Source: Acidimicrobiia bacterium (lineage in GTDB: Bacteria > Actinomycetota > Acidimicrobiia > IMCC26256 > JAMXLJ01). Taken from it: a stretch of 64,000 bases of DNA. This document shows, piece after piece, positions 36,655 to 51,290 of the stretch. Both the position numbers and the translations under genes were made by a program. The stretch's first letter is position 1. Each line of letters begins with the position of its first letter. The stretch spans positions 1 to 64,000 of the forward strand of contig JAMXLJ010000117.1 of assembly GCA_024281095.1 (NCBI GenBank). Direction: 5' to 3'. Below the pieces are notes generated by a model. It was not told where the DNA came from. It saw only the letters and a list, made by a program, of their open reading frames with translations, and did not search any database.

Positions 36655-37415
36655 GGCAATCGCCGCCGGCGCAGGACGTAGGTGTCCATGATCCAGCCCT
36701 TTGCGTCCCTCGCTCGCTGTCGCCGCCGCTGGATGTCGGACTGCACGTCGCGCAGTCTGCCGGAGACGAGGATCTCGTCGTCGGTGCCCAGATACGCACC
36801 CCAGTAGATGTCGACGTCGTCGGTGACCGTCGTGAAGGCGCAGTTGCCGTCGAGCATCACGACGACATGGTCGAAGTCTTCGGGAAGGCCCGACGATGCC
36901 AGCCGCCTTCCCGTCGTGATCGCCACGGAACCGGCGATCTCGTTGAGCGGGATGCGGTGCTTCGCGGCCAGCACCTGAACGCTGCTGATGCCCGGCACGA
37001 CCTCGTACTCGAACACCGGGGTGCTGCGCGACGCGAGCTCGCACAGGATCCGGAGGATGCTGTCGTACAGCGACGGGTCGCCCCAGGCGAGGAAAGCTCC
37101 GCACTTCCCGTCGTCGATCTCGTGTTCGATCAGCTCGGCGTACTGCTCCGTCCGGGCATCGTGCCAGGAGCGGACGGCATCTCCGTACGCAGGGTCGGTG
37201 CGGTCGCGTGCCGGGTCGTCCACCTCGACGATGCGGTACGGCTTGGCGGTCGCGTAGCGCCGGCAGATCTCTTTCCGGACGGCGGCGAGCTCGGCTTTCT
37301 CGTCGCCCTTGTCGACCACGAAGAAGACGTCGACCTCGTTGAGCGCCTTGATGGCCTGCACGGTGAGGTGGTCGGGGTCGCCGGCACCGATGCCGATGAC
37401 GAACACCTTCCTCAT
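36651..37415 (-). CDS. cobF: Precorrin-6A synthase (deacetylating)
   Basis: The 254-residue tetrapyrrole methyltransferase starts MRKVFVIGIGAGDPDHLTVQ, with the SAM-binding G-x-G-x-GD-x-x-x-LT motif, then FLAWGDPSLYDS and VVPGISSVQVLA. CobF methylates C1 of precorrin-5 and releases acetate, making precorrin-6A in the oxygen-dependent pathway. Strong similarity is seen in the KGWIMDTYVLRRR end. Its start overlaps the HAD-CobT stop by ATGA and its stop overlaps the thiolase start by GTGA. Confidence 0.92.
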   Translation of the reverse strand: MRKVFVIGIGAGDPDHLTVQAIKALNEVDVFFVVDKGDEKAELAAVRKEICRRYATAKPYRIVEVDDPARDRTDPAYGDAVRSWHDARTEQYAELIEHEIDDGKCGAFLAWGDPSLYDSILRILCELASRSTPVFEYEVVPGISSVQVLAAKHRIPLNEIAGSVAITTGRRLASSGLPEDFDHVVVMLDGNCAFTTVTDDVDIYWGAYLGTDDEILVSGRLRDVQSDIQRRRQRARDAKGWIMDTYVLRRRRLP

Positions 37416-38941
37416 CGTCGGCCGTCGTCGGGCTCGGATGCCGACTGGGCTTCGAGCTCGTCGAACGTCGCCATCTCGTTGAGCACGCGCACCGCGGCCT
37501 GCACGATCGGCACTGCGAGGCACGCGCCCGTTCCCTCACCGAGACGGAGCTCGAGGTCGATCAGGGGGTCGAGGTTGAGATGTGCGAGCGCGACCGTCGC
37601 GCCGGGCTCCGACGAGCGGTGTCCGGCGACACAGTGCTCGGCGACTCCGGGAACGAGCGCGTTGGCCGCGACGAGCGCCGCGCAGGCGATGACACCGTCG
37701 ACGATCACGGGCACACGCTCGGCGGCGCCACCGACGATCAGCCCCGCGATCGCGGCGATCTCGAGGCCGCCGACCTCGGCCAGAACCGACACCGGGTCGA
37801 GGTAGCCGTCGACGCGGCCGACGGCGTTGGCGACCACCTTGGTCTTGTGGGCGAGCATCGCGTCGTCGATGCCGGTGCCGCGACCAGTCACCGCGTCGGG
37901 GTGCGTGTGTGTGAACGCGGCGATGAGCGCGGCGGACGCCGTCGTGTTGCCGATTCCCATGTCTCCGGTGACGAGTAGGTCGTGACCGGCGGCGACGAGA
38001 CCGGCCGCGACGTCCGCGCCGGTGTCGAGCGCGGCCCGCGCATCGGCGGTGCTCATCGCGGGGCCGATCATGAGGTCGTCGGTGCCGGCCCGGACCTTGC
38101 GGTGTACGACGCCGGGGAGGCCTTGGAGGTCGGCCGCCACGCCGACATCGACGACGTGCACCTCGGCGCCGACCTGTCGCGCGAACGCGTTGATCGCCGC
38201 GCCACCCGCGGCGAAGTTGGCGACCATCGCCGCGGTGATGTCCTGCGGCCACGGCGTGACGCCCGACGCGACCACACCGTGGTCCCCCGCGAAGACCACC
38301 ACCACCGGGCGGCTCGGAACCGGCGGCGGGCACCGGCCCGTGATCGCGGCGACGAGGTTTCCGAGGGTCTCGACCCGTCCGAGCGAACCGGCCGGCTTCG
38401 TGAGCTGAGCCTGACGCGCCTCCGCGGCAGCGCGGGCGTCGCGGTCGAGCGGCACGACCGCGTCGGCCGCGGCCGTGAAGGGTCCCGAACGGGCCGCGAT
38501 CGCGCGGCTGATCGCGTCGGGGAGCCCTCCATCGACTGCGGCGAACGCGACGCCCGCCGTCGCGGCGGCGTCACGATCGACATCGTTGTCGCCGACGAGC
38601 AGCGTGCGTTCCGGTGCCACACCGAGCCGCGCGCATGCTTCGAGCACGCCGCGTGGGTCGGGTTTCGCGGCGCCCATGTCGCTCGACGTGACGACGACCT
38701 CCAGGAGCGCGTCGATGCCAGACGGTGCAAGCAGCGCGCGGACGGTCGACTCACCCATCGTCGCGGTGTCGGTGACCGCGCCGAGACGGTGATGCGCAGC
38801 CAGGGAACGCAGTGTCTCGACGACGCCGGGCAGCGGTCGGGCGGCGAGATCGCTGACCGGTGTCGCCGGTGCCGCCTGTTCCACCAGCGTGCCGCCGACG
38901 TCGAACAGGACCGCGTCGATGCCGGGAATGCTGCCGTTCAT
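37412..38941 (-). CDS. cobT: Fusion of a HAD phosphatase and nicotinate-nucleotide:DMB phosphoribosyltransferase (CobT)
   Basis: Residues 1-185 form a HAD hydrolase: FDVGGTLVE with nucleophile Asp14, VTDTATM, AAKPDPRG and LLVGDNDVDRDAA. Residues 190-509 are CobT: LTKPAGSLGRVETLGNL, VVVFAGDHGVVASGV, TGDMGIGNTTASAAL, GRGTGIDD and the catalytic Glu region LRLGEGTGACLA. CobT makes alpha-ribazole 5'-phosphate from nicotinate mononucleotide and dimethylbenzimidazole; a phosphatase must then act before or after CobS. The HAD part could do this. The second acidic residue of the HAD motif is Gly, as in some active sugar phosphatases. Overlaps with cobC and cobF are ATGA. Confidence 0.92.
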   Translation of the reverse strand: MNGSIPGIDAVLFDVGGTLVEQAAPATPVSDLAARPLPGVVETLRSLAAHHRLGAVTDTATMGESTVRALLAPSGIDALLEVVVTSSDMGAAKPDPRGVLEACARLGVAPERTLLVGDNDVDRDAAATAGVAFAAVDGGLPDAISRAIAARSGPFTAAADAVVPLDRDARAAAEARQAQLTKPAGSLGRVETLGNLVAAITGRCPPPVPSRPVVVVFAGDHGVVASGVTPWPQDITAAMVANFAAGGAAINAFARQVGAEVHVVDVGVAADLQGLPGVVHRKVRAGTDDLMIGPAMSTADARAALDTGADVAAGLVAAGHDLLVTGDMGIGNTTASAALIAAFTHTHPDAVTGRGTGIDDAMLAHKTKVVANAVGRVDGYLDPVSVLAEVGGLEIAAIAGLIVGGAAERVPVIVDGVIACAALVAANALVPGVAEHCVAGHRSSEPGATVALAHLNLDPLIDLELRLGEGTGACLAVPIVQAAVRVLNEMATFDELEAQSASEPDDGRR

Positions 38942-39840
38942 CGGTATCCCTCCAGTGCCTTCAGAAGCCGTTCGAGACCATCGGGGTCTGGCACGGCGAT
39001 GCGGACGCCGCCGACAAAGCCGAAGTTCGCGGTGTCGCGCACGAGCACGCCGCGCTGTGCGAGGTGGTCGCGCAGCCCTCGCGCCGCGCGGAAGAGAACG
39101 AAATTGCTGTCGGACGGATCGGCTTCGAGGTCGAACGCGGCCAGAGCAGCGACGAGGTCGGCACGCGCGCGCCCGATCGCGCCCGCCCAGCGCGGGAGAT
39201 CGGCGAGGTCGAGCAACTGAGGGACGATCGCGCACGCGAGCGCATTGACTGACCATTCCGGCTGGTGACGCGCGACGCGCTGCGCCGTCTCGCCGTCAGG
39301 AGCGACGACGTAGCCGACGCGCAGGCCCGGACAGGCGAAGACCTTCGTGAGCGACCCGACGACGATCGCGTCGTCGCCGCGTGTCCACCGGCCGGTCGCG
39401 AGCGGATAGAAGGCTTCGTCCCACACGGCGGCGGTGTCGTCGCGAGCGGCGAGGCGGCCGGTGGGATTGTTGGGATTGGAACGCCAACGTGGCGCACCGG
39501 GTGCACAGGTGCGGAGGTGACGCGAGTAGAGGGAGAACTCGGGACCTTCGACGTGGCCGGCGGGAAACTCTGTTGCCACGAGCGCGATGGCCTCGGCCCC
39601 GCCGTTCGTCAGGACGACCCGATCCGCGCTCACACCGAGGGCCCGGGCCAGCGCCTCAGTGGGGAGCGAGGTGTCGGGATACTCACGCGCTGCGTCAGCG
39701 TGCTCGGCGACGAGTGGTCCGACGTCGGGCGCGAACGGGTTGATGCTCATCGACAGGTCGAGCACGGACGCGGGCGGGATGCCGAGCATGCGGGCAAGGC
39801 GCGCGCCGTCACCGCCGTGGGCTCCGGGAGCGGGAATCAC
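38938..39840 (-). CDS. cobC: Threonine-phosphate decarboxylase-type aminotransferase CobC
   Basis: The 300-residue protein is a fold I PLP enzyme: LDLSMSINPFAPDV, TNGGAEAIALVA, SNPNNPTGRL, an aspartate in VWDEAFYPL and the PLP Lys in GSLTKVFACPGLRVGY. It should supply the aminopropanol arm (P. denitrificans CobC, enteric CobD), decarboxylating threonine phosphate. It is shorter than the 330-360 usual, with a compact N-terminal half. The GTG start overlaps the CbiB stop, and the stop overlaps the HAD-CobT ATG. Confidence 0.88.
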   Translation of the reverse strand: MIPAPGAHGGDGARLARMLGIPPASVLDLSMSINPFAPDVGPLVAEHADAAREYPDTSLPTEALARALGVSADRVVLTNGGAEAIALVATEFPAGHVEGPEFSLYSRHLRTCAPGAPRWRSNPNNPTGRLAARDDTAAVWDEAFYPLATGRWTRGDDAIVVGSLTKVFACPGLRVGYVVAPDGETAQRVARHQPEWSVNALACAIVPQLLDLADLPRWAGAIGRARADLVAALAAFDLEADPSDSNFVLFRAARGLRDHLAQRGVLVRDTANFGFVGGVRIAVPDPDGLERLLKALEGYR

Positions 39841-41943: not shown

Positions 41944-43140
41944 TCACGACGGCCCCCAACATACGAACACAGGGTTCTCGGCCGCGAGCCTGACGCCGTG
42001 CTCACCCAGCGCGACCCCACGAGAGACCGAGAGCTCGACGATGTTGCCGAGGCGCTGCCATGCGGCGACGGCGCGGTCGACGAGCGCGTAGTTCGCGACC
42101 ACCACACCACCCGGGCGCAGGCGCGCGAGTGCCGCGTCGAGTACGCCGATGCCGCCGCCGCCGACGAACACCCGGTCGGGGTCCGGAAGAGTCGCGAGCA
42201 CGTCGGGCGCAGCGCCCGACACGGCATCGACGGCAACCCCGTGCGTCTCGGCGTTCGCGACGATGCGCGTCACGCTCTCGGCGTCCTGTTCGATCGCGAA
42301 GACCTTCAGGTCCGGCGCCAGGCGCGCAGCTTCGATCGCGATCGAACCGCTGCCGGCTCCGACGTCCCAGAGCACTCCGGTACGCGGGAGTTGGAGCTTG
42401 CCGAGCGCGACCGCCCGCACCTCGGCCTTCGTGATCATCCCGTCGCGGTGGGCGAATCGATCCTCCGGCATGCCCCACGAGAGCGTCTTTGGGCCTTGTT
42501 CGGGGCGCCGTTCGCGCAACACCACGATCGACATCGCATCGAGATCCGAGGCTGCGAGCGCGGCGAGGTCGCCGTGGAACACGTGCTCGTCGAGCTCGCC
42601 GAGCCGCGTCAGCACGGTGACGTCGCGAGGCCCGCAAGCCAGCGAGAGGAGCGCGGCGCCGATCGCCTGTGGCGGGTTGTCGGGCGACGTGAGCACCGCC
42701 GCCTTGGGCGCGTCGATGAGCTCGCGCGCGGCGTCGTCCATCGCGCGCCCGTGGGCCGATACGACGACCGCGTCGTCCCACGAGCAGCCGAGCCGCGCGA
42801 AGGCCAACGAGACGGATGACGGTGCCGGATGCACGCGGAGCGCGTCCGACCCGAAGCGGGAAGCGAGCGCGCGGACGATGCCGAAGAAGCCCGGGTCACC
42901 GGAGGCGAGCACCGTCACGCGTGCACCGTGCTCGACTGCGTCCGCGATCTCGTCGAACGCGTCGGACAGGTTCGCGGTGAGCGGCACCCGCTCTGCCTCC
43001 GCGGCCGGCGACGCGAGCTTCAGCTGGCGGTCGGACCCCACGACGACCATCGCACCGTCGACCGCGGCGCGGGCGGCGGTGCCGAAGCATTCGCCGCCGA
43101 CCAGACCGACGACGTCGATGATCGCCGGCCCGTCAGGCAT
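41944..43140 (-). CDS. cobL: Precorrin-6Y C5,15-methyltransferase (decarboxylating), CbiE-CbiT fusion
   Basis: The 398-residue protein has an N-terminal CbiE methyltransferase domain (VTVLASGDPGFFGIVRALAS, then HPAPSSVSLAFARLG) and a C-terminal CbiT domain with the SAM motif LWDVGAGSGSIAIEAARLAP. It methylates C5 and C15 and removes the C12 acetate carboxyl to give precorrin-8X. The ATG at 43140 overlaps the cobM stop by 8 nt. All motifs are intact. Confidence 0.94.
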   Translation of the reverse strand: MPDGPAIIDVVGLVGGECFGTAARAAVDGAMVVVGSDRQLKLASPAAEAERVPLTANLSDAFDEIADAVEHGARVTVLASGDPGFFGIVRALASRFGSDALRVHPAPSSVSLAFARLGCSWDDAVVVSAHGRAMDDAARELIDAPKAAVLTSPDNPPQAIGAALLSLACGPRDVTVLTRLGELDEHVFHGDLAALAASDLDAMSIVVLRERRPEQGPKTLSWGMPEDRFAHRDGMITKAEVRAVALGKLQLPRTGVLWDVGAGSGSIAIEAARLAPDLKVFAIEQDAESVTRIVANAETHGVAVDAVSGAAPDVLATLPDPDRVFVGGGGIGVLDAALARLRPGGVVVANYALVDRAVAAWQRLGNIVELSVSRGVALGEHGVRLAAENPVFVCWGPS

Positions 43141-43906
43141 CACCACGCCCCGACCGGAACGAGTGCGAGTAGCCGGCCGCGTACACGTGGCTGCGGGCTG
43201 CGACCTCGCGCAGGGCCAGCGCGTCACCCACGAGCACCAACACGGTGGTCGTGCGGGCGAGCGCGCGCAGGTCGTCGGCGAGCCTGCCAACCGTCGTGTG
43301 GACGATCTGTTCGTCGGGCCACGACACCCGCGAGGCGATGACCGCCGGCGTCTCTTCCGTGTACGCGGAACGGAGCGTGAGCAGCTCGGCCCGCAACTCG
43401 TCGGGGCGCGCCGCGGAGAGGAACACGGCCATCGTGCCGCCGACCCGCGCGTACTCGGCGACGCCCTCGTTCGCCGGCATCGATGCCGCGGTGCGATGGG
43501 CCAGACGCGTCAGCACGACGCTCTGTGCGACCGCGGGTGACGTGAGCTCACGCCCGATTGCGGCCGCAGTCGCGGCCAAGGAGCTCACGCCCGGCACGAT
43601 CTCGAACGAACGTCCGTTGGCGACGCACCAGTCGATCTGCTCGCCGATCGCGGAGTACACCGTCGGGTCACCCGAATGGAGGCGGACGATCGCGGCCTCG
43701 GGGTGCGCCTCGTACACCGCGATGACGTCTTCCAGCGTCATGGCCTTCGAGTCGTGGACGACCACGTCCGGCTTGCAGTGCGACAACAACGCCTCGGGTA
43801 CGAGCGATGCGGCCCATACCACGACGTCGGCGTTCGCCAGACGCTGCGCGCCCCGCACGGTGACGAGATCGGCCGCGCCCGGCCCGGCGCCGACGAACGA
43901 GATCAT
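43133..43906 (-). CDS. cobM: Precorrin-4 C11-methyltransferase
   Basis: The 257-residue protein starts MISFVGAGPGAADLVTVRGA and has VWAASLVPEALL, VRLHSGDPTVYSAIGEQ, VPGVSSLAATAAAIGREL and LTRLAHRT, characteristic of CobM/CbiF. It adds a methyl group to C11 of precorrin-4. Its ATG overlaps the stop of the RHH-CobI gene by four bases (ATGA), so the two products are translated together. Confidence 0.94.
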   Translation of the reverse strand: MISFVGAGPGAADLVTVRGAQRLANADVVVWAASLVPEALLSHCKPDVVVHDSKAMTLEDVIAVYEAHPEAAIVRLHSGDPTVYSAIGEQIDWCVANGRSFEIVPGVSSLAATAAAIGRELTSPAVAQSVVLTRLAHRTAASMPANEGVAEYARVGGTMAVFLSAARPDELRAELLTLRSAYTEETPAVIASRVSWPDEQIVHTTVGRLADDLRALARTTTVLVLVGDALALREVAARSHVYAAGYSHSFRSGRGDA

Positions 43907-44787
43907 CGGGCGGCCGCCCGCACCGCGGGCACGACGACCGTCGCGAGATAGGACGCCGGGCGGTCGGCGACGGCGGCGACCCGGGCCGACCGGCCACCCG
44001 GCAGGCCGAGCATCTCTCCGACCACCGCGCCGTCGAGGCGGCCGTTGCTGCGCAATCGGTCGGCGACGGAAGGAAGGTGCCGGCCGCCCTTGTACAGCAC
44101 GATGGTGCTGTCCGTGTCGGTCAACATGGTGTCGAGCACGGACGTGTCGCCATCGGCGACGGCGAGCACGAGATGCTCACCTTCCTCCGTGAGCACGACC
44201 GCGGTCTCGGCGGCCAGCTCCTGGAACGCCATCACTCCCGGCACGGTGGCGACCGGAACGGAAGGCCGCTGGGCGGCGACGATCCGGGCGAGTGCGGGGA
44301 AGGTCGAATAGACGTTGGGGTCCCCGAGCGTCACGAACGCGACGACGGCTCCGGTGTCGAGCGCGTCGACCACCGCCGCGGCTGCGGAATCGAGCGAAGC
44401 AGATCGCGCGGTCGCGTCGCCCGCGATGTCGAAGGCGAGACGGTCGACGCGAACCTCGGGTGCGACGGCCCGCACGACGGCCTCCGCGCGCCCGATCGCG
44501 TCCGGCGCGGTGGACGCGGCGAAGACCCGGCCGGCCGAGGCCAACGTCGCGATGGCCCGTTGGGTGACGAGGCCCGGATCGCCCGGGCCGACTCCGACTC
44601 CGACGAGCCGGGGGCCGGCGGCGCGTGGTCGCTCCGGAGCGCCCGGCGTGCCCTCGGCTTCGGCCGCACGCACCAGGCGCTCGACCGCGAGCCGCACCAG
44701 CTCGGCCTCCGAGCGCCCGGACCGTCGGGCGAGCGTGGCAAGTTGCTCCTTCAGCTCCTCCGGCAGGTACACGGACGTCTTGAGCAC
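43903..44787 (-). CDS. Ribbon-helix-helix DNA-binding domain fused to a CobI/CbiL-type precorrin-2 C20-methyltransferase
   Basis: The first 45 residues are a CopG/Arc-like ribbon-helix-helix unit: VLKTSVYLPEELKEQLATLA followed by RRSGRSEAELVRLAVERLV. After a short linker comes a complete tetrapyrrole methyltransferase: LVGVGVGPGDPGLVTQRAIA, FVTLGDPNVYSTFPALA, VPGVMAFQELAAETAVVL and STIVLYKGGRHLPSVA, closest to CbiL/CobI. A separate CobI lies at 48771. The RHH part could bind DNA and the enzyme part sense precorrin-2 or SAM. I place the start at GTG 44787, where TACCCT lies 6 nt upstream; GTG 44802 is an alternative. Confidence 0.85.
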   Translation of the reverse strand: MLKTSVYLPEELKEQLATLARRSGRSEAELVRLAVERLVRAAEAEGTPGAPERPRAAGPRLVGVGVGPGDPGLVTQRAIATLASAGRVFAASTAPDAIGRAEAVVRAVAPEVRVDRLAFDIAGDATARSASLDSAAAAVVDALDTGAVVAFVTLGDPNVYSTFPALARIVAAQRPSVPVATVPGVMAFQELAAETAVVLTEEGEHLVLAVADGDTSVLDTMLTDTDSTIVLYKGGRHLPSVADRLRSNGRLDGAVVGEMLGLPGGRSARVAAVADRPASYLATVVVPAVRAAAR

Positions 44788-44792
44788 GGACG

Positions 44793-44810
44793 TAGGGTAC
44801 ACATAGGGCA
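44793..44810. promoter_or_regulatory. Direct-repeat candidate operator at the RHH-CobI start
   Basis: TAGGGTA at 44793-44799 and TAGGGCA at 44804-44810 are direct repeats with an 11-bp period, about one helical turn. The first overlaps a TACCCT box (minus strand) that could be the -10 of a leaderless transcript from GTG 44787. The same half-site forms a perfect inverted repeat at 46712-46728. Binding by the RHH domain encoded here is inferred. Confidence 0.5.
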
Positions 44811-44828: not shown

Positions 44829-46160
44829 TCAGGAGCCGGCGGCCGACCGTACGAACGCCGCGGCGAGGTCGGGCGCAGCCCCCAGGTGCACGTGGAGGTA
44901 GGAGGCCAACAGGCGCGGGCTCGCGAACGCCGGCGGCGTGGTCGTGCCCGGCGTCACCGCCGCGAGCGCATCACCGCGCGGCGACACGGTGGAGTAGTGG
45001 AACTCGTGGCCGCGGATCTCGAGGCCGGCGGGCCCGAGCGGCGTCGGCACCCTGGTGCGCGCGTGGCGGTAACCGAGCGTCACGCGCGAGCCCATCGCGG
45101 CGCGGGCCGGGACGACGCCGGCCATCGCGCGGTCGTCGAGGCGTTGTGAGAGCCAGAGGAGGCCGCCGCACTCGGCCCACACCGCGATGCCGTCGGCGAC
45201 CCGGCGCCTCACGTCGTGCAGCAGCGGTTCGTTGTCGGCGAGTGCGGACGCGTAGACCTCGGGGAAGCCGCCACCCGCGATCAACCCCTGACAGTTCTCG
45301 GGGACGCGCGCATCGTCGCACGGATCGAACGGAACGAGCTCGGCGCCTGCGGCCGCCAGCGCTTCGAGGTTGTCCTCGTAGGCGAAGCTGAACGCGCGGC
45401 CGCTCGCGACCGCGACTCGAACGTCGCCCGTTCGTGCCGGGAGTGGAGGTGCGTCGAAGTCGCGCCGCGGCACGCCGGCCGCGACACGTGCGATCGCGTC
45501 GAGGTCACAGGAGCGCTCGATCGCGTGCGCGAGCCGGTCGAGTGCGGCGCGCACCGTATCGGGCTGCTCCACGACCGGAACGAGGCCGAGATGGCGGTCG
45601 CGCCACGCGAACGCGTCGTCTCGGCGCAACGCCCCGAGCAACGGGACACCGGTCCGTTCGAGCGCCGTCCGCAACAAGTGCTCGTGGCGGTCCGACCCGA
45701 CCCGGTTGCAGATCACGCCGGCCAGGCGCACCCGGGCGTCGAGCGTGGCGAATCCGTGCACGATGGCGGCGATCGAGTGACTCAACCCGGAGGCGTCGAC
45801 CACGAGCACGACCGGAGCATCGAGCAACACCGCGACATCGAACGTCGACGACGGCGTGCCGTCGGCGGCGCCGTCGAACATCCCCATGACGCCCTCGACG
45901 ACGAGAAGGTCGGCACCATCGGCGGCCCGCGCCGCGAGCGGACCGATCGCGCCCGTACCCGACATCCACGGGTCGAGATTGCGACCCGGACGACCGGTCG
46001 CGAGCGCGTGGTAGCCGGGGTCGATGAAGTCGGGGCCGACCTTCGCGGCCGCGACGTTCGTGCCGCGGCGCGCGAACGCGGCCATCAACCCGCTCGCGAT
46101 CGTGGTCTTGCCGACGCCCGAGCCCGTGCCGGCGATGACGACGCGCGGGCCGAGGGTCAT
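44829..46160 (-). CDS. cobB: Hydrogenobyrinic acid/cobyrinic acid a,c-diamide synthase
   Basis: The 443-residue protein has an N-terminal dethiobiotin-synthetase-like domain with P-loop IAGTGSGVGKTTIASGL, KVGPDFIDPGYH and EGVMGMFDGAA. The C-terminal glutamine amidotransferase domain has the Cys in WAECGGLLWLSQ and His in IRGHEFHYS. It amidates the a and c carboxyls with ATP and glutamine; in the aerobic pathway this precedes cobalt insertion by CobN. Start ATG 46160 lies 7 nt after the cobO stop. Confidence 0.94.
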   Translation of the reverse strand: MTLGPRVVIAGTGSGVGKTTIASGLMAAFARRGTNVAAAKVGPDFIDPGYHALATGRPGRNLDPWMSGTGAIGPLAARAADGADLLVVEGVMGMFDGAADGTPSSTFDVAVLLDAPVVLVVDASGLSHSIAAIVHGFATLDARVRLAGVICNRVGSDRHEHLLRTALERTGVPLLGALRRDDAFAWRDRHLGLVPVVEQPDTVRAALDRLAHAIERSCDLDAIARVAAGVPRRDFDAPPLPARTGDVRVAVASGRAFSFAYEDNLEALAAAGAELVPFDPCDDARVPENCQGLIAGGGFPEVYASALADNEPLLHDVRRRVADGIAVWAECGGLLWLSQRLDDRAMAGVVPARAAMGSRVTLGYRHARTRVPTPLGPAGLEIRGHEFHYSTVSPRGDALAAVTPGTTTPPAFASPRLLASYLHVHLGAAPDLAAAFVRSAAGS

Positions 46161-46167
46161 GTGGCCG

Positions 46168-46689
46168 TCAGTACTCGATGCCCTTGCGGGCACCAATGCC
46201 TTCGTCCATCGCGTGCTTGACCTTCACCATCTCGGTAACGGTGTCGGCAATCGCGATGATCTCGTCGGGTGCGTATCGACCGGTGACGACGACGTTCGTG
46301 CGCGCGGGTCGGTCGCGCAACACCTGCACGATGTCGTCGACGGGAACCCAGCCGTACTTCACGGTGTAGGTGAGCTCGTCGAGGATCACGAGGTCGTGCG
46401 CACCACTGTCGATCTTCGCCGCGGCAACGTTCCACGCGTGGCGGCCCTTCGCGATCGTCTCGTCCATGTCGGTCGATTCCCAGGTGAACCCGTCGCCCAG
46501 CGTGTGCCATTCGATGCCGAGATGGTCTGCGAGCTTCCGTTCGCCGGCCCGCCACTTCTCGCTCTTGACGAACTGCACGACGCAGACCGACCAGCCCCGC
46601 GCCCACGCCCGCCCCATCACGCCGAAGGCGGCCGAGCTCTTCCCCTTGCCGGTGCCGGTGTTGACGAGGAGCCGTGAAGCCTGCGTCAT
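46168..46689 (-). CDS. cobO: Corrinoid adenosyltransferase (CobA/CobO type)
   Basis: The 173-residue protein has the P-loop LLVNTGTGKGKSSAAFGVMG, the CVVQFVKSEKW segment and LVILDELTYTVKYGWV. It transfers the adenosyl group of ATP to Co(I) corrinoid. I choose ATG 46689: TACGGT lies exactly 7 nt upstream, as for leaderless mRNA. A longer frame begins at ATG 46722, but that codon sits in the centre of an operator-like palindrome shared with the divergent gene. Confidence 0.93.
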   Translation of the reverse strand: MTQASRLLVNTGTGKGKSSAAFGVMGRAWARGWSVCVVQFVKSEKWRAGERKLADHLGIEWHTLGDGFTWESTDMDETIAKGRHAWNVAAAKIDSGAHDLVILDELTYTVKYGWVPVDDIVQVLRDRPARTNVVVTGRYAPDEIIAIADTVTEMVKVKHAMDEGIGARKGIEY

Positions 46690-46696
46690 GGCGCGC

Positions 46697-46702
46697 ACCG
46701 TA
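46697..46702 (-). promoter_or_regulatory. Likely -10 element of a leaderless cobO promoter
   Basis: TACGGT on the minus strand is followed by 7 nt and then the cobO ATG, matching the TANNNT spacing of leaderless actinobacterial mRNAs. The expected -35 region falls inside the palindrome at 46709-46731. The mirror-image promoter of cobG has the same box and spacing. Confidence 0.5.
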
Positions 46703-46708
46703 GCCCGG

Positions 46709-46731
46709 ACATAGGGCAGCATGCCCTACGT
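46709..46731. promoter_or_regulatory. Palindromic operator candidate between divergent cobO and cobG
   Basis: TAGGGCAGCATGCCCTA (46712-46728) is a perfect 7-bp inverted repeat with a 3-bp centre; the arms extend to 10 bp with one mismatch (46709-46718 and 46722-46731). CCTACGTAGG follows at 46725-46734. The half-site matches the TAGGGCA/TAGGGTA repeats at the RHH-CobI gene. It covers the -35 positions of both divergent promoters, as expected for a repressor site. Confidence 0.55.
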
Positions 46732-46737
46732 AGGCGC

Positions 46738-46743
46738 TACGGT
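46738..46743 (+). promoter_or_regulatory. Likely -10 element of a leaderless cobG promoter
   Basis: TACGGT is followed by 7 nt (TGCCGGC) and GTG at 46751. Neither start codon at 46721 nor 46751 has a ribosome-binding site, so a leaderless transcript from 46751 is the best reading. The box and spacing are identical to those of cobO on the other strand. Confidence 0.5.
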
Positions 46744-46750
46744 TGCCGGC

Positions 46751-48100
46751 GTGGCGACGACTGCAGCTCCGGCAGCGCGGGCCGGGCGCGGCGCGTGCCC
46801 GAGCGTGCACGCTCCGTTCCTCGAGCTCGACGGGGCGCTCGCCCGGATCCGGCTGCCCGGCGGCATCCTGCCTTCACCGGCGGCCCGCGCGATCGCGACG
46901 CTCGCGACAGAGCTCGGGGCGGGCCCCGTCGAGCTGACCAACCGGGCCAACCTCCAGCTGCGTGCCATACCTCCCGACGCCATCGGTCGAGGACGCGACG
47001 CGCTGATCGCCGCCGGGCTGGCGCTCGAGGACCCGGACGCCGACGAGCGCCGCAACGTGCTCGCGAGCCCCACGGCCGGTGTCGACGCCGAGGAGCTGGT
47101 CGACACGCGGCCGCTCGTGACCGACGTCGCGGCGCGGCTCGCGTCCACCGCGGCGACCGGGCTCACGCCGAAGTTCGGCGTGCTCGTCGACGGTGGCGGT
47201 TCGGTGCACGTGCGCGGCCGGGTGCACGACGTCGCCTTCGGCGCGGTGCGCGCCCGCGACGGTTCGGTGCGTTATGAGATCCGTCTCGCCGAGCCCCTGC
47301 CCGTCGTGTTCGTCGCGGGAGAGGCCGTGTTGCAGGTCGATCCGTCGCAGGCTCTCGATGCGGTCGACGCGGTCATCGCGCTGTGCGCGCCGTTCGGCCG
47401 AGCGTCGGACGCGCTCGGCGAGCTCGGAAGAGAGCGCGCGGCACGCGAGCTCACGCGGCGCTCCGGTGGCGCGGTGATCGCCCGCGACGGCGGTGAACTG
47501 CGCGGCCCGATCAACGAGTCGGCGTCAGCCGTCGGTGTGCACGGGCAGCGCAACGCGGGTCGAGTTTGGGTAGGCGGAGTGCCGGTGCTCGGTCGCCTCG
47601 AGCCCGCCGCGCTCGCCGCGCTCGCGACGCTGGCGGAACAGGGCGGAAGTGGCGAGCTTCGGATCACGCCGTGGCGGGGACTCGTCGTGCCCGACGTCGC
47701 CACCGACGACGTCGCGGCGGTTCTCGCGGCGTGTACCGACCTCGGGCTCGTGTGCGATCCGGAACATCCGGTCAACACGGTCGTCGCCTGCGCGGGGGAG
47801 TGCGGATGCGCGGCCGGGCTGGCCGACACGCAGTCCGACGCGCGTGCGGTGATCGACCACTTGCTCACGGTTCCGGTCGCCGAGCGGCCCCGATCGCTAC
47901 ACGTGTCGGGGTGCGAGAAGGGCTGTGCGCGACCACGACCCGCCCAGGCCTCGCTCGTCGCGGGCCCGGTGCGCGGCACCTACGACGTGTACGCGGCGCG
48001 GGCGGGCGCCACCGGTTCGCGATTCGGCGAACGGATCGCGTCGGGGCTCGACCTGCGCGCGGCGATGGAGCACGTCGACGCAGAGGGAACGCGGGGATGA
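46751..48100 (+). CDS. cobG: Precorrin-3B synthase (oxygen-dependent)
   Basis: The 449-residue protein belongs to the nitrite/sulfite-reductase hemoprotein-like family: IRLPGGILPSPAARAIATLA, then VELTNRANLQLRAI, RITPWRGLVVPDV and Cys-rich ACAGECGC and SGCEKGCAR segments that bind a 4Fe-4S centre. CobG hydroxylates precorrin-3A with O2 to start ring contraction, so the cluster is of the aerobic type. Start GTG 46751 has TACGGT 7 nt before it; ATG 46721 lies within the palindrome. The stop overlaps cobH by ATGA. Confidence 0.9.
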   Translation: MATTAAPAARAGRGACPSVHAPFLELDGALARIRLPGGILPSPAARAIATLATELGAGPVELTNRANLQLRAIPPDAIGRGRDALIAAGLALEDPDADERRNVLASPTAGVDAEELVDTRPLVTDVAARLASTAATGLTPKFGVLVDGGGSVHVRGRVHDVAFGAVRARDGSVRYEIRLAEPLPVVFVAGEAVLQVDPSQALDAVDAVIALCAPFGRASDALGELGRERAARELTRRSGGAVIARDGGELRGPINESASAVGVHGQRNAGRVWVGGVPVLGRLEPAALAALATLAEQGGSGELRITPWRGLVVPDVATDDVAAVLAACTDLGLVCDPEHPVNTVVACAGECGCAAGLADTQSDARAVIDHLLTVPVAERPRSLHVSGCEKGCARPRPAQASLVAGPVRGTYDVYAARAGATGSRFGERIASGLDLRAAMEHVDAEGTRG

Positions 48101-48774
48101 GCGCGTCGGAACCGACCGAGCGACAGGACGCGCTCGACGTGCTCGACGGGTACGTGCGTGACGGGGCCGAGATCTACCGCAGGTCGTTCGCGACGATTCG
48201 ATCCGAGGCCGACCTCGCTCGTGTGCCTCCGGATCTGGAGACGGCCGCGGTCCGCATGATCCACGCGTGCGGGATGGTCGACCTCGTCGACGACCTCGAC
48301 TGGTCCCCAGGCGTGGGCGACGCGATCCGGACCGCGCTGAGGGCCGGAGCCGGTGTGTTCACCGACTCTTTGATGCTGGCGAACGGCATCACGCGCCGCC
48401 GACTTCCGGCGGGCAATGCGGTGCGGTGCACGCTGCGCGACGACGACGTGGTCGCGCGCGCGGCCGCGCTCGGCACGACACGTTCCGCGGCCGCGGTGGA
48501 CGCATGGATCCCGCAGCTCGCCGGTGCTGTCGTCGCCATCGGCAACGCGCCCACCGCACTCTTCCGCCTGTTGGAGCTGCTCGACGGCGACGCGTCGGTG
48601 CCGCGTCCGGACGCGATCATCGGTGTGCCGGTCGGGTTCGTCGGCGCGGTCGAGTCGAAGCTCGTGCTGGCGCGGGGCGCGCACGGCGTGCCCTTTCTCA
48701 CCGTGCACGGGCGCCGGGGCGGCAGCGCCATCGCGGCCGCGGCCGTGAACGCATTGGCGAGCGAGCCGGAATGA
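48097..48774 (+). CDS. cobH: Precorrin-8X methylmutase
   Basis: The 225-residue protein has RRSFATIRSEADLARVP, the catalytic His in VRMIHACGMVDLV, VFTDSLMLANGITRRRLP and IGVPVGFVGAVESKLVL. CobH moves the C11 methyl to C12, giving hydrogenobyrinic acid. Length and motifs match the family. ATG 48097 overlaps the cobG stop, and the stop overlaps the cobI start by ATGA. Confidence 0.94.
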   Translation: MSASEPTERQDALDVLDGYVRDGAEIYRRSFATIRSEADLARVPPDLETAAVRMIHACGMVDLVDDLDWSPGVGDAIRTALRAGAGVFTDSLMLANGITRRRLPAGNAVRCTLRDDDVVARAAALGTTRSAAAVDAWIPQLAGAVVAIGNAPTALFRLLELLDGDASVPRPDAIIGVPVGFVGAVESKLVLARGAHGVPFLTVHGRRGGSAIAAAAVNALASEPE

Positions 48775-49511
48775 CGCAGCGACCGGAAGCGGGTCGGTGC
48801 TTCGGCGTCGGAGTCGGCCCCGGCGATCCCGAGCTGGTGACGGTGAAGGCGGTACGGGTGCTCGAGGAGTGCTCCGTGGTCGCGTACTTTTGCGCGACGC
48901 GTCGCGAGAGCAATGCCCGTCGTGTCGTGCAGCAGTATCTGCGTGCTCACCACACCGAGATGCGCCTCGTGTACCCGGTCACCACCGAGCCGGTCGCACC
49001 GGACAAGTACGAGACCCTGCTTGCCGACTTCTACGACGAGTCGGCGAAGCGGATCGCCGAGGTGCTCGACGCGGGTGTCGACGTCGCCGTGCTCTGCGAA
49101 GGTGATCCGCTGTTCTACGGCTCGTACATGTACCTGCACACCCGCCTGCACGATTCGTACGCGAGCGTGGTGGTGCCCGGGGTGTCGTCACCGTTCGCGG
49201 GCGGGGCGGTGCTCGGTGCTCCGCTCGCGTCACGCAACGAGGTCTTCAGCGTGCTGTCGGGGGTGCTCCCCGCCGACGAGCTGGTCGCGGGAATCGCAGC
49301 CGCCGACGCCGCGGTGGTGATGAAGGTCGGCCGCAATCTCGAGAAGGTGCGCGACGCCGTCGCGCGTGCGGGTGTGCTCGACCGCGCGTCGTACGTGGAG
49401 TGGGCCACGACCCCGCGGCAGCGCACGATGCCGCTCGCCGAAGTCGACGGCCGCAGCGCGCCGTACTTCTCGATGGTCGTCATCCCGAGCGCGGGCGCGC
49501 TGCGCCGATGA
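48771..49511 (+). CDS. cobI: Precorrin-2 C20-methyltransferase
   Basis: The 246-residue protein has CFGVGVGPGDPELVTVKAVR, VLCEGDPLFYGSYMYLHTRL, VPGVSSPFAGGAVLGAPL and VVMKVGRNLEKV, the standard CobI order. It methylates C20 of precorrin-2 to precorrin-3A, the first committed step of the aerobic pathway. A second CobI-like enzyme, fused to a DNA-binding domain, lies at 43903. Overlaps by ATGA tie it to cobH and cobJ. Confidence 0.94.
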   Translation: MTQRPEAGRCFGVGVGPGDPELVTVKAVRVLEECSVVAYFCATRRESNARRVVQQYLRAHHTEMRLVYPVTTEPVAPDKYETLLADFYDESAKRIAEVLDAGVDVAVLCEGDPLFYGSYMYLHTRLHDSYASVVVPGVSSPFAGGAVLGAPLASRNEVFSVLSGVLPADELVAGIAAADAAVVMKVGRNLEKVRDAVARAGVLDRASYVEWATTPRQRTMPLAEVDGRSAPYFSMVVIPSAGALRR

Positions 49512-51126: not shown

Positions 51127-51290
51127 GTTCCCCGGTGCCACAGGGAACCCGGTGTGAATCCGGGGCTGTCCCGCAACTGTGACCGGGGAGCGACCCTCCG
51201 CCACGTTCGAGGTGGGCAAACGGCCACGGCCTCTCGGGGCTGGAAGGCCGGAGGAGAGCGGCGATCCGGGAGCCAGGATACCTGTGCACC
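51127..51290 (+). ncRNA. Cobalamin (B12) riboswitch
   Basis: The conserved core is plain: CAGGGAACCCGGTGTGAATC, followed by CCGGGGCTGTCCCGCAACTG, then variable stems, and the B12 box AGCCAGGATACCTG at 51271-51284. It should bind adenosylcobalamin and turn off the downstream genes. No terminator hairpin was seen after it, while a ribosome-binding site GGGAG lies only 21 nt past it, so control of translation is likely. It leads the cobQ-FhuF-cobN-chlID-btuCDF operon. Confidence 0.95.

Follow-up and report, generated by a model that had tools for sequence, protein, structure and literature searches.

The window, by which we mean the whole 64,000-nucleotide stretch of DNA that was analysed, encodes a protein in which a ribbon-helix-helix (RHH) domain precedes a CbiL/CobI-type tetrapyrrole methylase, and this fusion protein is probably an autogenous trigger enzyme of the PutA type. 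We observed the fusion itself, its recurrence, conserved and unique sites, covariation between a residue of the RHH domain and a base of the site, and a pattern of second CobI proteins. DNA binding and repression by the fusion protein and its control by a ligand are what we infer. Two marks of a trigger enzyme were found: the enzyme is joined to a DNA-binding domain, and the promoter of its gene holds an operator-like site.

Architecture and distribution of the fusion gene

The initial annotation had placed both parts in a single frame, and the translation bears this out: both lie on one continuous minus-strand open reading frame (ORF, 43903-44802) with no stop or shift, and Pfam domains of both kinds were found in it. 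The features at this locus are:

44792-44809, minus strand: tandem operator GCCCTATGTGTACCCTAC (conserved pattern), with 4 bp between its end and the inferred start codon
43903-44787, minus strand: gene of the RHH-CbiL/CobI fusion, 294 aa when read from the inferred start GTG 44787 (domain scans, upstream comparison)
44659-44787, minus strand: ribbon-helix-helix domain, residues 1-43 from GTG 44787 (Pfam RHH_1 and RHH_5, VapB26 match, AF2 helix pair)
43915-44610, minus strand: CbiL/CobI-type tetrapyrrole methylase domain, residues 60-291 from GTG 44787 (Pfam, NCBIfam and structure matches)
43133-43906, minus strand: cobM (TIGR01465 above cut-off), the next gene after the fusion and part of its predicted operon

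The RHH domain comprises the strand KTSVY and helices at about residues 10-23 and 27-46. Two Pfam models, RHH_5 (30 bits against a cut-off of 26) and RHH_1 (29.4 bits against 20.5), exceeded their curated cut-offs within residues 9-48 of the ORF, which by sequence places the domain in the RHH (CopG/MetJ/Arc) family. The proposed N-terminal RHH domain was thus recovered, except that the first five codons of the ORF ('VYPTS') coincide with conserved operator DNA. Since the 'YPTS' codons of the longer ORF are operator DNA, the gene most likely starts at GTG 44787 and not at 44802. A comparison of upstream regions showed that the operator is out of frame, or lies well upstream, in several relatives. 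In the C-terminal part we detected TP_methylase (117 bits, residues 65-271 of the ORF); the best NCBIfam model was TIGR01467, precorrin-2 C20-methyltransferase (residues 65-292), and CbiL structures were the top sequence and fold matches. An AF2 monomer (pLDDT 67, pTM 0.51, four-sequence alignment) reproduced the helix pair with the strand not formed, and we considered this model too weak to serve as evidence for an RHH dimer.

A search for the domain pair in other genomes had been proposed. Across relatives, class and phylum it returned 16 loci with a full-length fusion, spread over 14 genomes that all belong to the bacterial class of the window (G000, which is the genome of the window, G035, G087, G015, G025, G031, G061, G062, G331, G286, G304, G093, G266 and G172). 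Two copies each were present in G062 and G331, and one G331 copy is broken; the second RHH-CbiL copy of G331 (L162) has a frame change inside the methylase domain with the tandem operator still present. No full-length fusion was found outside the class in a sample of 396 genomes from the phylum, nor in the plasmids that we searched. The RHH domain is retained and the position of the linker conserved in all 16 loci, and at least nine families of the class share the conserved strand and helices. The same CbiL clade also has many unfused members. Several independent fusions were considered and not adopted: the tree needs two changes, yet a single fusion clade is not rejected (p-AU 0.43), and a single origin is compatible with the tree but not proven. 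All named records carrying the fusion are metagenome assemblies, which would favour an assembly or gene-calling artefact. However, architecture, linker position and operator are shared by the 16 loci, and full-length relatives in 13 other genomes rule out an accident of assembly; the shared architecture likewise led us to discard a chance match, and we regard an artefact as next to impossible.

Operator-like sites and their predicted recognition

The pattern GCCCTAY-N5/6-CCCTAC or a close variant precedes 15 of the 16 fusion genes and none of nine unfused relatives (Fisher p 5e-6, uncorrected for shared ancestry). At the window locus it overlaps a possible -10 element (TACCCT), and CCCTAY-N5/6-CCCTAC has one match in the 4.39 Mb genome, at the fusion promoter. 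The site is close to the start codon in many fusion loci, that of the window included, and farther upstream in others; in G266 the tandem repeats have the opposite orientation. The exception is G172, which has no CCCTA tandem and shows a degenerate CCATAC...CCACCC about 216 bp upstream. A large CCCTA regulon was not supported, as the relatives had roughly equal numbers of other tandem matches and of matches to the reversed control pattern.

A second site lies upstream, among the neighbouring cobalamin genes:

44829-46160, minus strand: cobB (cobyrinate a,c-diamide synthase), with CbiA and GATase_3 domains, between cobO and the fusion
46168-46722, minus strand: cobO, start probably ATG 46689, divergent from cobG (named from gene order and homology)
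46711-46729: inverted operator ATAGGGCAGCATGCCCTAC in the divergent promoter of cobO and cobG, a unique pattern match
46721-48100, plus strand: cobG, start probably GTG 46751 (nitrite/sulfite reductase domains, gene order)
48771-49511, plus strand: canonical cobI (PRK05990 325.6 bits and TIGR01467 214.6 bits, both above cut-off)

The pattern TAGGG-N7-CCCTA has a single match per whole genome in G000, G035 and G087, and in all of them the match falls in the divergent promoter next to cobG, the first gene of cobG-cobH-cobI-cobJ; its position in G035 corresponds to that in the window. Among the fusion genomes, that operon was seen in just these three. The window cobO is 93% identical to its G035 counterpart. 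The sites first noted at 44.8 and 46.7 kb both proved to be conserved elements in the cross-genome comparison. Given the domain pair and the matching sites at these two positions, regulation of the cob promoters, as originally suggested, appears likely and is supported by the comparative evidence; cobG and cobO would be targets of the fusion protein.

The window has further genes of the oxygen-dependent pathway, cobG and cobF among them, and one frame was taken as cobN from gene order, length and homology. By eye, the translation of the cobT frame (37412-39000; nicotinate-nucleotide:DMB phosphoribosyltransferase) has an apparent N-terminal HAD-like phosphatase domain. Elsewhere, cobF occurs alongside cbiG at L093 (G061), L094 and L092 (G062) and L155 (G331), with cobN also at L093 and L094; these neighbourhoods mix genes of the oxygen-dependent and cobalt-early pathways.

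The closest solved relative of the RHH domain is VapB26 (5x3t). We compared the fusions with the free VapB-like RHH genes of the class and their upstream DNA, counting only visible paired half-sites, and found that a strand residue and the third base of the half-site vary together. CCCTA pairs accompany a KTS or KSS strand in 17 genes, including two free RHH genes with KTS, and CCATA pairs accompany a KTT strand in 13 free RHH genes, one of them mixed. Many KTT genes have a single half-site or none; two free RHH genes of the S class, L241 (KTS) among them, have no site. The covariation within the S class rests mainly on related fusions. G172 is the sole fusion with a KTT strand. In a phmmer alignment the varying residue falls on T6 of CopG, which we take to be a DNA-facing position in contact with DNA; the covariation thus lends indirect support to the predicted contact of the strand with DNA. 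Among the free VapB-like RHH genes L212-L251 a simple rule can be read, KTT with CCATA and KTS with CCCTA half-sites.

These relatives also bear on the idea that the RHH domain is a mere remnant of an antitoxin gene, attached by chance, with a role in oligomerisation at most. The domain is nearest to VapB-type antitoxins, and the free RHH genes L189 and L246 carry the same operator as the fusion. As a point against the trigger-enzyme reading, the tandem site could have been inherited from an antitoxin promoter. That origin leaves the cobG site unexplained, and both the conservation and uniqueness of this site and the preserved strand and helices make a leftover very unlikely.

A cobalamin riboswitch (51142-51283, plus strand, 81.3 bits) precedes cobQ in the window and not the fusion gene. 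In the unfused G120 a riboswitch lies between cobB and cobI, where fusion loci have the tandem operator, and this suggests a division of labour between riboswitch and operator. Replacement of the riboswitch by the operator was only partly supported as a general rule: directly before unfused cobI, a riboswitch stands out in G120 and gives a weak signal in G234, most other such loci yielded none, and most unfused loci have neither element. In G172 a cobalamin riboswitch (L160, 10739-10870) stands before two apparent small membrane-protein genes, cbtBA-like by eye, which sit with it between cobB and the fusion.

The methylase domain beside a canonical CobI

The window protein had been described as a full CbiL/CobI-type enzyme with intact SAM motifs. 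In the column comparison its catalytic and SAM motifs are conserved and it keeps 38 of 39 strongly conserved columns, the exception being P to A at alignment column 31; the family score is less clear-cut, as TIGR01467 gave 159.8-160.3 bits, just below the equivalog cut-off of 163.25. The G035 fusion scored 149.2 and departs from two of the 39 columns. The G087 fusion scored 122, has lost ten of them, with YSTF and YKxG among the losses, and sits on the longest end branch of the tree. Canonical CobI is present in these three genomes; the initial annotation had not mentioned the copy in the window. The 12 fusion loci in genomes without it range from 166.8 to 189.9, all above the cut-off, and the gap between the three and the 12 has an exact p of 0.002, drawn from three genomes and few independent lineages.

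Eleven genomes have no kind of protein other than the fusion above the TIGR01467 cut-off, so that the fusion is presumably their working C20-methylase. These cobalt-early genomes have cbiG, save the incomplete G025; cbiG was not found in G000, G035 and G087, and among the fusion genomes it is otherwise missing only in G025. In the window, a score just below the cut-off and a canonical CobI alongside indicate that the fusion may now be more regulator than enzyme. As a sub-case of the trigger-enzyme reading, the methylase of this lineage could be catalytically dead and the protein a dedicated regulator, possibly sensing an early corrinoid intermediate. The lower scores beside canonical CobI, the columns lost in G087 and the absence of cbiG from exactly the three CobI genomes and G025 speak for it, but the nearly intact columns of the window copy and the few lineages behind the score difference weigh on the other side; we see it as possible, with the balance somewhat against it. 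A broader proposal is that in cobG-type genomes, the window included, a former C20-methylase has become a sensor of early tetrapyrrole or corrinoid intermediates that represses the ring-synthesis operons and replaces riboswitch control by the finished cofactor there. We put this forward tentatively and think it a little less likely still.

Antitoxin RHH domains regulate by concentration. The fusion protein might be a plain autorepressor that keeps its operon at a fixed level through protein concentration alone, with a methylase that provides dimerisation and catalysis and senses nothing. The overlap of the operator with the start region would suit such a protein, as would the concentration-type regulation typical of antitoxin RHH domains, and no allosteric feature was identified. 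However, the three cobG genomes retain the fusion and two operators despite a canonical CobI, which fits a signal-bearing role better, and we rate plain autorepression as rather improbable.

Proposed mechanism and relation to known systems

We therefore return to the trigger-enzyme reading. Here a dimer of CbiL, the C20-methyltransferase, bears an N-terminal RHH domain seemingly taken from a VapB-like antitoxin, and the two RHH chains of the methylase dimer would pair and read CCCTA half-sites. The protein would bind its own tandem site, which overlaps the start as well as the probable -10 region, and would repress the operon that it heads (RHH-cbiL, cobM and others). In the cobG genomes the second, inverted site would extend control to the divergent promoters of cobO and cobG-H-I-J. 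Substrate, product or SAM on the methylase domain probably sets the affinity for DNA, so that ring synthesis would report on itself. In cobalt-early genomes the fusion would double as the sole C20-methylase; in the window genome, with its canonical CobI, it seems to be shifting from enzyme to dedicated regulator.

The statement that no described repressor is built this way is not supported, as trifunctional PutA is a proline dehydrogenase with an N-terminal RHH domain and an autogenous repressor of its own regulon (PMC5293562). Both proteins are metabolic enzymes with an N-terminal RHH domain, whereas autorepression is known for PutA and predicted from sequence for the fusion. PutA differs in enzyme, pathway and signal, and its membrane switching has no counterpart in the fusion, whose RHH domain is VapB-like and whose operators are tandem and inverted CCCTA sites. 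With CbiL/CobI (TIGR01467; 8xj3, 2qbu, 2e0k) the fusion shares the full-length domain and the SAM-binding GVGPGD, GDPxxYSTF and PG motifs, but it has an additional RHH domain of about 45 residues and a linker, and the window copy falls short of the family cut-off. VapB-type antitoxins resemble it in RHH sequence and in operators whose half-sites are spaced by 12 bp and lie shortly upstream of the start; in the fusion, however, the enzyme takes the place of the toxin-binding tail, S replaces T in the strand and CCCTA replaces CCATA. It is not itself a VapB antitoxin, since cobM and not a toxin gene follows it and its C-terminal part is a methylase. The cobalamin riboswitch (RF00174) controls cob operons, as is predicted for the fusion, but it is an RNA that senses the finished cofactor.

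What is known of the control of B12 synthesis mostly concerns riboswitches sensing the end product, and no paper in the literature searched joins ribbon-helix-helix with precorrin-2. Because the predicted sites are short, defined to the base and each present once in the genome, a single gel shift would suffice to test the operator claim. If the fusion binds its operons, it would add a second control principle, exerted by an intermediate inside the pathway, and the series from sole enzyme through enzyme beside canonical CobI to motif-losing copy would show an enzyme turning into a regulator. Taken together, the comparisons suggest that this fusion in uncultured Actinomycetota switches its own B12 pathway, much like PutA.
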